DNA of 52,267 bases from Verrucomicrobiota bacterium (GTDB lineage Bacteria; Verrucomicrobiota; Verrucomicrobiia; Limisphaerales; BJHT01): NCBI GenBank assembly GCA_014193395.1, contig BJHT01000011.1:1-52267 (forward strand), written 5' to 3'. The notes under the pieces were generated by a model. That model did not search any database and was not told the DNA's origin. It was given only the letters and a program-made list of their open reading frames with translations. This document shows, in pieces, positions 17,631-44,465 of this stretch. The position numbers were made by a program, and so were the translations under genes. Within the stretch, counting starts at the first letter, position 1; the number at the start of each line of letters is the position of its first letter.

Positions 17631-17642
17631 GCGCGGATGATG

Positions 17643-17670
17643 AATGGCGAATGGCGAATGGCGAATGAAG
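17643..17670. repeat. Heptamer tandem repeat (AATGGCG units)
   Basis: Three exact AATGGCG units and a diverged fourth (AATGAAG), directly upstream of the TauE-family start codon. A matching inverted arm was not found. Confidence 0.85.
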
Positions 17671-24660: not shown

Positions 24661-25159
<499 letters not shown>

Positions 25160-27314: not shown

Positions 27315-27403
27315 GGGTAGGGCGCGGTGTCCTCACTCCGTCGTCGGCCACACTGGCATGGCCTCGGCGCTAGCCGGCGCGGTGAGGACACCGCGCCCTA
27401 CCC
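27315..27403. repeat. Palindrome of the GGTAGGGCGCGG family, intergenic copy
   Basis: Perfect 22-base arms at 27315-27336 (GGGTAGGGCGCGGTGTCCTC...) and 27382-27403, with a 45-base loop. The arms match the element inside ileS at 28871-28942. It lies in the gap between dnaA and the DUF4926 gene. Confidence 0.95.
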
Positions 27404-27412
27404 ACCGACGGT

Positions 27413-27730
27413 TCACGCCACCAAACGGGCCGCTTGCAGTTCGCGGGCGTGAGGGATGTCGCGGGTCTGGAGCGGACGGACTTGGGTGTGCTCCAACGTC
27501 AGCAGTGCGACGGTGTGACCGTCGTAGCCGACAAATTCCACTTCAAAGGCCGCGCCATTCCCATGCACCAACACGGCGGTGCCCACGTCGCCGCGCACCA
27601 GCCCGTGGGCCGGGAGGTCGCAGGTCAGCGCCACGGCGTCCAGTTCGTTGATGGGGTTCAAGATTTGGGCAATGTGGGTGCGCCGTTCCGAAACGAAGCG
27701 CAGCACAGCAGCTTCATTCCGTCGCCTCAC
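27413..27730 (-). CDS. DUF4926 domain protein
   Basis: 105 residues if it starts at the GTG at 27730. Residues about 30-88 match DUF4926: ELDAVALTCDLPAHGLVRGDVGT, then FEVEFVGYDGHTVALLTLEHTQVRPL. The family is small and of unknown function. The GTG overlaps the ileS stop codon by four bases (GTGA), suggesting translational coupling. The stretch between the GTG and the domain (about 25 residues) may be read-through; an in-frame TTG at about 27652 could be the real start. Confidence 0.72.
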   Translation of the reverse strand: MRRRNEAAVLRFVSERRTHIAQILNPINELDAVALTCDLPAHGLVRGDVGTAVLVHGNGAAFEVEFVGYDGHTVALLTLEHTQVRPLQTRDIPHARELQAARLVA

Positions 27731-30633
27731 GCCGGGGATGCGCTCACCGCCTCGACGCAGCGCGGGCACAGCGTCGGGTGCGCGGGGGTGAGGCCGACGG
27801 CGAGTTCCCAGTGCCAGCAGCGTTCACATTTCTGGCCGGCGGCTTTGAGGATGACGGTGCTGGTGGCGTCGGCGTCACCATTGGCGTTGGTGTGAATTTC
27901 GAGCTGCGAAATGTTGAGGAGTTCGCGCAGGGCTTCGGCGTGGGTTTTGCCGTCGGTGAAGAGCGGGCCGGAGCCGTTGAGGATGGCCTGGGCGTCGAGG
28001 GCTTTGCCGATTTCCTTGGCCTGCCGGGCTTTTTCGAGATGCGGGAGAACCTGCACGCGGAGGAGGAAGAGTCCCTCCCACGCGGATTGTTCGGCCGCGG
28101 AACGAGGGAATGGCCGGGGCTGCCAGGTCGAGGCGTGGACCGAGGGCGCGGGTTTGCCGGGAATGAAATCCCACGCCTCATCGGCGGTGAACGCGAGCAG
28201 CGGCGCGAGCATCTGGCTCAAACCGATGACGAGGCGGTGCAGCGCGGTCTGCGTTGAGCGGCGGCGCGGCGAATTCGCGGGGTCGGTGTAGAGCCGGTCT
28301 TTGACGGCGTCGTGGTACATCGAACTGAGTTCGACCGCGGCGAACTGGCTCAGGCGCTGATAGACAACGTGGAATTCGTAGGCGTCATAGGCCTTGATGA
28401 TGTCCACCTCCAGCTCGGCGAAGCGCCCGAGAATCCAGCGGTCGAGGCCGGTCAGCTCGGCGTCGGCGACGCTGTGCTTGGCCGGGTCGAAGTCGTAGAG
28501 ATTCGAGAGTTGGTAGCGCAGGGTGTTGCGGAGGAGGCGGTAGGTCTCGGCGACTTTTTCGATGCGGTCGTCACCGACCCAGATGTCGCCGCGATAATCC
28601 TGCGATGCGACCCAGAGGCGCACGACGTCGGCACCGAACTGGTTCACGTAGCGGTCGGCGGTCTCGGGTTTTTCGTAGGTGGACTGCGCGGACTTGGAGA
28701 CTTTTTCTTTTTGCTTCGGATCAATCTTGCTGGCTTTGACCATGAAGCCGTGGGTGAGCACGGTTTTGAACGGGGCCGCGCCATTGCCCGCGAGCGAGAG
28801 GAGCAGCGAGGACTGAAACCAGCCGCGGTGCTGGTCGGAGCCTTCGAGATAAACATCGGCCTGCCAGAGGCAGGGCGCGGTATCCTCACCGCCCCGATCT
28901 TTGGCGGACGCTTGCGGCGCGCTGAGGACAACGCGCCCTACCGTGTGTTGAAGTTCGGTTCGCCGCATCAGCACCGCGCGGCTGGAGCTGCCGGAGTCGA
29001 TCCACACGTCAAGCGTGTCGGCGGATTTCGCGACAGCGGCGGGGCCGGTCCAGCCGGCGGGTTGCACGAGCGCCCAGAGTTCGGCGGCGTTTTTTTCGAA
29101 CCACACATTTGAGCCGTGCTGCTCGATGAGCGCGGCGACGGAACGCACAATGCGGGCGTCGAGGAGTGGATTGCCGGACGCGTCGTAGAACGCCGGGATC
29201 GGCACGCCCCACGAGCGCTGGCGCGAGATGCACCAGTCGGGGCGGGTCTTCACCGCGCCTTCAATGCGGTTCTTGCCCCAGTCGGGAATCCAGTGGACGC
29301 GGTCGATCTCGGCGAGGGCTGTCTCGCGAAATGTTTTTCCACCGTGCTCGTGGTCGATCTTGATGAACCACTGGTCCATCGCGCGGAAAATCACGGGCGT
29401 CTTGCTGCGCCAGCAGTGCGGGTAGCTGTGGTGGTAATTCTCCTGATGCAACAGCGCCGTGCGCACGCGGAGTTCGTGGAGGACGGCGTTGTTCGCGTCG
29501 CTCTGGCCGTGCTTTTCAAGGATCGACTTGCCGACCATTTCGGCGGGCAGTTGCTGCTCGCGCGGCAGGTCATCGGTCGGCGTGAGACAGCCGTTGTCAT
29601 CGACGGGCGAGTAGATGGGCAGCCCGACCTGACGGCCGAGTTGATAGTCCTCCATGCCGTGGCCGGGCGCGATGTGAACGAAGCCCGTGCCCGTGCTGTT
29701 CTCGACAAAGCCGGCGGGAAAGAAGTGTCCGGTGCGCGGGCAGAAAGGATGCTCGTAAACCAGCGTCGCGAGCTCGTCGGCGCTCGCCGTGCGGGTGATC
29801 TGATAACTGCTCCAGCCGCACTTTTTAGAAACCGCTTCCAGCAGCGCGTCGCACACCAGATACGTCGCGTCGTCGGCCTGCACGTAGGAGTAGAAAAAGC
29901 TGGGATTGAAGGCGACGGCGAGATTCGCGGGCAAGGTCCACGGCGTGGTGGTCCAGATGATGACGTAGGTGTTCGGCTCACCCTGCAAGCGGTAGCGCAC
30001 ATACACGCTCTGGCTCACGTGATCGGCGTATTCCACCTCCGCCTCGGCCAGCGCGGTGCGGCACGGAATGCTCCAATACACGGGCTTTTTCCCGCGATAG
30101 ACAAAGCCCTGCTCGACGAGATCCGCGAACAGGCGCAGTTCGTCGGCTTCGTATTCCTTGTTGAGCGTGAGATAGGGATTCGCCCAGTCACCGAGCACGC
30201 CGAGGCGTTTGAACTGCGTACGCTGGATGTCGATGTATTTGCGCGCGTAAGCCTCGCAGGCGGTGCGGATGGTCGCGGGATCGGCGGCGGTGTTGCCGGC
30301 CTTGCGCATTTCCTGGCTCACCTTGAATTCGATGGGCAGCCCGTGGCAATCCCAGCCGGGGACGTAGGGTGCATCAAACCCGCGCAGGGATTTGTATTTG
30401 ATGATGATGTCCTTGAGAATTTTGTTGAGCGCCGTCCCGATGTGGACATCGCCATTGGCGAAAGGCGGGCCGTCGTGCAGCACAAATTTCTCGGCCCCTG
30501 CGCGCGCTGCGCGGATGGTGTCGTAGAGGTCGGCCGCCTGCCATTTCTCGAGGCGTTGTGGTTCGCGCAGGACGAGGTCCGCCTTCATGGGGAAGTCGGT
30601 TTTAGGCAGGTTGAGTGTGTTTTTATAGTCCAT
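27727..30633 (-). CDS. ileS: Isoleucyl-tRNA synthetase
   Basis: Charges tRNA-Ile; 968 residues. The HIGH motif appears as GDVHIGTALNKILKD, preceded by FVLHDGPPFANG; the KMSKS motif is KEKVSKSAQ. The editing domain contains WTTTPWTLPANLA. The C-terminal zinc ribbon has CERCWHW and CPRC. The anticodon-binding domain is intact. Odd feature: residues about 564-588, between SGSSSRAV and ADVYLEGSDQHRGW in the catalytic fold, contain about 24 extra residues encoded by a palindromic repeat. E. coli IleRS has about 18-20 residues across this interval, versus 43 here. The gene is divergent from mpl and coupled to the DUF4926 gene. Confidence 0.97.
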   Translation of the reverse strand: MDYKNTLNLPKTDFPMKADLVLREPQRLEKWQAADLYDTIRAARAGAEKFVLHDGPPFANGDVHIGTALNKILKDIIIKYKSLRGFDAPYVPGWDCHGLPIEFKVSQEMRKAGNTAADPATIRTACEAYARKYIDIQRTQFKRLGVLGDWANPYLTLNKEYEADELRLFADLVEQGFVYRGKKPVYWSIPCRTALAEAEVEYADHVSQSVYVRYRLQGEPNTYVIIWTTTPWTLPANLAVAFNPSFFYSYVQADDATYLVCDALLEAVSKKCGWSSYQITRTASADELATLVYEHPFCPRTGHFFPAGFVENSTGTGFVHIAPGHGMEDYQLGRQVGLPIYSPVDDNGCLTPTDDLPREQQLPAEMVGKSILEKHGQSDANNAVLHELRVRTALLHQENYHHSYPHCWRSKTPVIFRAMDQWFIKIDHEHGGKTFRETALAEIDRVHWIPDWGKNRIEGAVKTRPDWCISRQRSWGVPIPAFYDASGNPLLDARIVRSVAALIEQHGSNVWFEKNAAELWALVQPAGWTGPAAVAKSADTLDVWIDSGSSSRAVLMRRTELQHTVGRVVLSAPQASAKDRGGEDTAPCLWQADVYLEGSDQHRGWFQSSLLLSLAGNGAAPFKTVLTHGFMVKASKIDPKQKEKVSKSAQSTYEKPETADRYVNQFGADVVRLWVASQDYRGDIWVGDDRIEKVAETYRLLRNTLRYQLSNLYDFDPAKHSVADAELTGLDRWILGRFAELEVDIIKAYDAYEFHVVYQRLSQFAAVELSSMYHDAVKDRLYTDPANSPRRRSTQTALHRLVIGLSQMLAPLLAFTADEAWDFIPGKPAPSVHASTWQPRPFPRSAAEQSAWEGLFLLRVQVLPHLEKARQAKEIGKALDAQAILNGSGPLFTDGKTHAEALRELLNISQLEIHTNANGDADATSTVILKAAGQKCERCWHWELAVGLTPAHPTLCPRCVEAVSASPA
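28871..28942. repeat. Palindrome inserted in frame in ileS
   Basis: Arms 28871-28889 (CAGGGCGCGGTATCCTCAC) and 28923-28942 (TGAGGACAACGCGCCCTACC) are inverted copies with two or three mismatches. They match the arms at 27315-27403. The segment is 72 bases, 24 codons, which fits the excess length of this IleRS. Confidence 0.9.
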
Positions 30634-44290: not shown

Positions 44291-44465
44291 AAAGCTCAAA
44301 GCTCAAAGTTCAAAGCTCAAGGGAAGCCGCCAAGCATCAAGCCTCCAATTGGAGCCTCGCGAGATTCGCTGCGTGACGGGCATGAAAACCGAGGTCGCTG
44401 GCCGCTGCACATGGAGCTTGGTATCTGGAGCTTTCTTTGAGCTTTAGGCTTTGAACTTTGAGCTT
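44291..44465. repeat. Paired AAGCTCA heptamer element, copy 3
   Basis: Left arm 44291-44347 (AAGCTCA, AAGCTCA, AAGTTCA, AAGCTCA) and right arm 44412-44465 (TGAGCTT, TAGGCTT, TGAACTT, TGAGCTT). It ends directly at the stop codon of the small gene at 44466. Confidence 0.87.

Follow-up and report, generated by a model that had tools for sequence, protein, structure and literature searches.

A REPIN-type repeat in frame in verrucomicrobial ileS, at a loop of isoleucyl-tRNA synthetase repeatedly occupied by repetitive DNA

The isoleucyl-tRNA synthetase (IleRS) gene ileS of a verrucomicrobium carries, in frame, a palindromic repeat of the REPIN type, and as relatives have repeatedly gained other repeats at the same codon, the loop encoded there acts as a landing spot for repetitive DNA. 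The window, i.e. the entire stretch of 52,267 nucleotides that was analysed, is contig C11 of a metagenome assembly (G000; 7.9 Mb in 730 contigs, with 5.8% contamination) whose named relatives are Pedosphaera, Limisphaerales and other Verrucomicrobia, and the ileS gene of the window provides the only full-length IleRS match in this genome. The features relevant to the repeat are the following:

27727..30633, minus strand: ileS, isoleucyl-tRNA synthetase of 968 aa, a single open frame with the Pfam domains tRNA-synt_1, Anticodon_1 and zf-FPG_IleRS
28869..28942, minus strand: in-frame REPIN made up of two inverted GTAG-type REPs and coding for V565-C588 (VGRVVLSAPQASAKDRGGEDTAPC), recognised by sequence, repeat family, folding and pLDDT
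28916..28942, minus strand: 5' REP of the ileS insert (coding sense), GGTAG plus the imperfect hairpin GGCGCGTTGTCCTCAGCGCGCC, recognised as direct repeat D2 against the intergenic copy (93%)
28869..28896, plus strand: 3' REP of the ileS insert (inverted), GGCAG plus GGCGCGGTATCCTCACCGCCCC, recognised as repeats I2/D5 against the intergenic copy (89-90%)
27315..27403, no strand: intergenic copy of this REPIN family, placed between dnaA and ileS, with perfect 22-bp arms, recognised by repeats and BLAST and having an orthologous counterpart in the congener G001

On the coding strand the 74-bp insert reads GGTAGGGCGCGTTGTCCTCAGCGCGCC-spacer-GGGGCGGTGAGGATACCGCGCCCTGCC, with its GTA in codon phase 0, and it preserves the frame and contributes 24 residues (565-588). 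In its 3' REP the GTAG has changed to GCAG and the hairpin is partly decayed, the GTAG at the other end being intact, and the RNA of the insert is computed to fold at -51.5 kcal/mol as compared to -35.7 +/- 3.3 in shuffles (z = -4.7). A preliminary description of this DNA had reported a palindrome in frame in ileS at 28871-28942, an unusually long interval in the catalytic fold of the enzyme, and arms matching those of a perfect palindrome with 22-bp arms at 27315-27403 beside dnaA. All three observations hold: the palindrome lies inside one open IleRS frame and extends from 28869 to 28942, its arm sequence is the same as that of the intergenic copy, and the DVW..RGW interval comprises 64 residues in the IleRS of the window as opposed to mostly 42-50 in those members of the order in which no insert is apparent, and to 36-40 in most cases from other phyla. 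It had also been held that this reading would fail if the 24 residues were common to related IleRS proteins; the relatives are without these residues, so that the reading stands on this point. With the insert excluded, the dN/dS of ileS between G000 and G001 is 0.063, and the gene is therefore under strong purifying selection.

With respect to the remainder of the genome, a search for the arm and a count of coding against intergenic copies, both of which had been proposed in the preliminary description, revealed a dispersed family. A 19-bp arm with at most three mismatches has 31 matches in contrast to five for a reversed control pattern, and 72 BLAST matches of the family are found at E <= 1. 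Most of the sites are inverted REP pairs of 72-85 bp, consisting of GTAG, a hairpin (GGCGCGGTG TCCT CACCGCGCC or variants), a spacer, and then the reverse ending in CTAC. The family thus displays a GTAG beside a short hairpin, two inverted REPs making a larger hairpin, and a dispersed, mainly extragenic distribution, and judged by this anatomy the ileS element is to be classified as a REPIN, i.e. as a dimer of GTAG-class REPs. An Rfam search at the ileS copy gave no match, and a sub-threshold match of the intergenic copy to mir-4854 was dismissed, as any long hairpin can match in this way.

To separate coding from intergenic copies, 3-kb loci for a sample of 28 sites were inspected together with their Pfam matches, and a coding frame was accepted only on the basis of Pfam domains or a clear protein context, long open reading frames in the GC-rich G000 genome being mostly spurious. 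Three of the 28 sites are clearly coding and lie in frame in recognisable proteins, namely in ileS, in mfd, where the copy sits between the UvrB-interaction and CarD domains and is orthologous between G000 and G001, and in a DNA methylase gene, downstream of the domain of that gene. In addition, one single REP of the family directly follows an AcrB domain near the end of the gene, and the remaining inspected sites show no supported coding frame across the element. The genome G006, whose ileS site is occupied by another REPIN family, has in-frame copies in glnS and in a gene for a DinG-like helicase as well as a single REP in pheT. In-frame copies are, accordingly, a minority, yet a recurrent one in tRNA synthetases and repair/helicase genes, in agreement with what Di Nocera et al. 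reported for other species. In G006, one REPIN family is present in three tRNA synthetase genes, namely ileS, glnS and (as a single REP) pheT.

The G000 genome contains eight Y1-transposase matches, two of which resemble REP-associated tyrosine transposases (REP_Tyr_transpos), one of them above the NCBIfam cut-off. Among the inspected transposases of this incomplete assembly there was no RAYT/TnpA-REP gene flanked by the GTAGGGCGCG family, the flanks being formed by other REPs. A RAYT gene in the flank is common, yet orphan families can do without one, and the assignment to the REPINs therefore rests on the anatomy of the element. At three loci of G000 (L185 on G000:C234, L182 on G000:C82 and L188 on G000:C134), REP-associated or Y1 transposase genes are flanked by their own GGAG-tagged hairpin copies (e.g. 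GGAGGCGACAGCTTGTCGCCTC), and these hairpins constitute REP families separate from that of ileS.

Among the 137 genomes of order members in which the loop was read, a palindromic insert is found in 15 (10 genera) and a 7-bp tandem array, e.g. of CCGCACT or ACTCAAA, in 27 (13 genera), figures that are not unbiased frequencies since the genome sampling favoured long inserts. All 15 palindromic inserts reach or exceed the maximum palindrome score (11) of 840 shuffles, two of them equalling it, and ten of the 15 begin with a GTA, GTG or GCA codon directly after E-L-x-H-x. They comprise several REPIN families, including GTAGGGCGCG, GTAGGGACG, GTAGGACAGGC and GT(A/G)GCGC types. In a FastTree reconstruction from 152 sequences with the loop left out, a tree with many weak branches, about 14 changes are required to account for the palindrome state of 15 tips, and 17 to account for the heptad state of 27 tips.

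The IleRS of G001, the other member of the genus that was compared, is 94% identical overall to that of G000, and the insert region is not meaningfully alignable. At the same codon, G001 carries a different REPIN (GGTAGGGACGGGCTTCC...GGCCGCGCAGCAGCGCGGCCCTACC), half-elements of which type are found throughout G001 and parts of which are also repeated in G000. Aligned to each other, the two inserts score at most as high as the top one of 200 shuffles and are for this reason not regarded as diverged forms of a single element. A third REPIN family, with 46 matches in its own genome, is present at the ileS site of G006, and the congeners G070 and G139 harbour unlike REPINs at a matching position between near-identical flanks. 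Neither a strain of the G000 species with an empty site nor a target duplication at the ileS insert was found.

In at least two carrier genomes, the heptad units of the loop arrays recur as repeats at other places. In cyanobacteria, STRR heptanucleotide repeats likewise form 7-bp tandem arrays dispersed in the genome; the loop arrays are likened to them by description, whereas units and phylum differ. A literature search for heptad repeats in Verrucomicrobia found none. In the window itself, heptanucleotide arrays of the same kind as those in the ileS loop of other genomes reside at 1215-1286, 17642-17667, 24661-24694 and 44291-44320 (GGGTCTG, GAATGGC, GTGATCC and AAAGCTC, respectively), and a 35-bp stretch at 44292-44326 that includes the last of them is identical in G001. 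The IleRS of G100 (L374, G100:C77:18300-19900) is longer by about 117 residues in this loop, and 86 of the additional residues match IleRS 211-296 in the editing-domain region with 38% identity (E = 4e-20), an apparent internal duplication. Also, some public records that bear the title Klebsiella pneumoniae or Akkermansia muciniphila contain IleRS genes of this verrucomicrobial order and are apparently mislabelled.

An AlphaFold2 model of IleRS, built from a 52-sequence alignment, has a mean pLDDT of 91.9, with only residues 566-586 below 50, and a fold search with the protein confirmed the IleRS fold. In the model the insert is located between a short helix (559-561) and the strand 592-598 leading to GSDQHRGW; relative to the Staphylococcus aureus enzyme, the insert falls near residues 546-547. 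The insert had initially been placed beside the active site, and in sequence it is indeed near the motif; the model, however, shows a disordered loop before the strand that precedes EGSDQHRGW. Because the active-site motif is at the far end of this strand, the added residues most likely protrude on a side facing away from the catalytic pocket, as suggested by the class I Rossmann topology. Since many kinds of DNA fill the same loop in relatives, the insert is best seen as sitting in a permissive loop and not as intruding into the catalytic centre.

Insertions of at least 12 residues in 94 full-length IleRS proteins are found mainly at residue 431 (25 genomes) and in the 564-589 loop, and many of the inserts at residue 431 are palindromic or contain heptads. 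REPIN-like palindromes, some of them with a central heptad array, are seen at residue ~431 in L077, L274, L276, L341 and others; in the IleRS of the window this loop (about 29335-29345) is unoccupied.

We consider it quite probable that selfish REPINs land genome-wide and that those inserted in frame are retained by selection where a surface loop tolerates them, the ileS loop having been refilled repeatedly. A REPIN, as a non-autonomous mobile repeat, would have inserted in ileS at codon phase 0, its movement most likely being a single-strand transposition by a HUH transposase of the TnpA-REP/RAYT type; such enzymes of other species cleave and transfer REP strands in vitro (PMC8266576). REPINs, heptanucleotide arrays and even a domain fragment would arise or land throughout the genome and the gene-breaking ones would be purged by selection, while in-frame insertions would survive in the ileS loop and in the second loop near residue 431, so that the former becomes occupied again and again across the order. 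The insert may be nearly neutral for IleRS, which would tolerate it because the added residues protrude, disordered, from a surface loop (from the helix end at ~561 to the strand at 592). Finally, one occupant of the loop could be replaced by another REPIN, be it by replacement proper or by deletion and new insertion.

However, the co-location of elements at exactly one codon exceeds what is expected from the simple tolerance of an 8-residue loop, and this exact reuse might possibly reflect fold tolerance, a target preference or an in-place exchange of REPINs. A tentative alternative hypothesis assumes that the loop ancestrally held a REPIN in several lineages and that elements were exchanged in place, either through a transposase that acts at their GTAG/CTAC termini or through REPIN recombination. 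In favour of this scenario are the two congeneric pairs with palindromes at matching positions (G000/G001 and G070/G139), both of which differ in the element and match closely in the flanks, the start of ten of the 15 elements directly after E-L-x-H-x, and the intergenic and mfd REPINs, which are still orthologous in G000 and G001, so that the turnover looks specific to the ileS site. Yet most relatives have short, palindrome-free loops, the carriers are scattered on the tree, heptad arrays often fill the loop instead, the same genera included, and the position may be set by fold tolerance. It is rather doubtful that the loop of IleRS is a site dedicated to exchange, with REPINs swapped in place at one codon by transposase or recombination; if true, an essential enzyme would, throughout a bacterial order, contain a peptide cassette that is encoded by such elements and turns over fast.

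It seems improbable that the hairpin has been retained for a function at the RNA or DNA level, e.g. to slow the ribosome in ileS or to tune mRNA stability. While the strength of the mRNA hairpin (z = -4.7, see above) and the RNA roles suspected for REPs (PMC3733652) would be in line with such a function, most relatives are without the hairpin, the occupants vary in sequence, many of them are heptad arrays with no comparable hairpin, and the arms of the ileS copy are partly decayed. Very unlikely is an ordinary hypervariable protein loop whose codons are palindromic by chance and which involves no mobile DNA: length and sequence do vary across the order, but this reading is contradicted by the many intergenic copies that the insert DNA has in its own genome (in G000 and likewise in G001 and G006), and the palindromes score above shuffles. 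An assembly artefact in which a repeat was misjoined into ileS is hardly credible, as despite the 730 contigs and 5.8% contamination of G000 and the misjoins that repeats provoke, the reading frame continues unbroken across the insert, 15 genomes assembled separately show events of this kind, and a misjoin would not resume the same gene at the same codon on the far side.

REPINs and GTAG-class REPs are characterised by a GTAG tag with a hairpin, by two inverted units, and by a dispersed and mostly intergenic location (PMC3116915, PMC3733652, PMC8266576). The ileS element has the same anatomy, but differs from the known REPIN/RAYT systems in being coding, in residing in an essential gene, and in having no cognate transposase among those inspected. 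In-frame GTAG REPs as such are already known, with examples from a verrucomicrobium and from tRNA synthetase genes. In the study of Di Nocera et al. (2013), in-frame GTAG/CGTC REP dimers coding for 20-30 residues were most numerous in the verrucomicrobium Opitutus terrae, and in other species intragenic REPs were seen in repair genes and in genes for aminoacyl-tRNA synthetases as well (PMC3733652). In the preliminary description the element had been compared to the RPEs, ~150-bp palindromic elements of Rickettsia that lie in frame in unrelated, often essential genes (PMC10969869), and taken for a similar element of new sequence in an unrelated phylum. It is indeed a palindromic repeat of mobile type lying in frame; its anatomy, however, is that of a GTAG REP dimer, a class already reported in genes, and only three of the 28 inspected copies are clearly coding. 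The likeness to the RPEs is one of behaviour only.

A REP at about the same site in two species has been described for recB of Xanthomonas (PMC3733652). Whereas this case concerns one gene in two species, one codon of the essential enzyme IleRS has been filled independently across at least ten genera, both by REPINs of several families and by unrelated tandem arrays, which is new. New, too, are the two congeneric pairs whose members carry unlike elements at this position. With two insertion-tolerant loops of IleRS now mapped, the ileS loop represents a natural replicated experiment on selfish DNA becoming protein, by which target choice versus selection and the origin of protein segments from mobile DNA are made directly testable.
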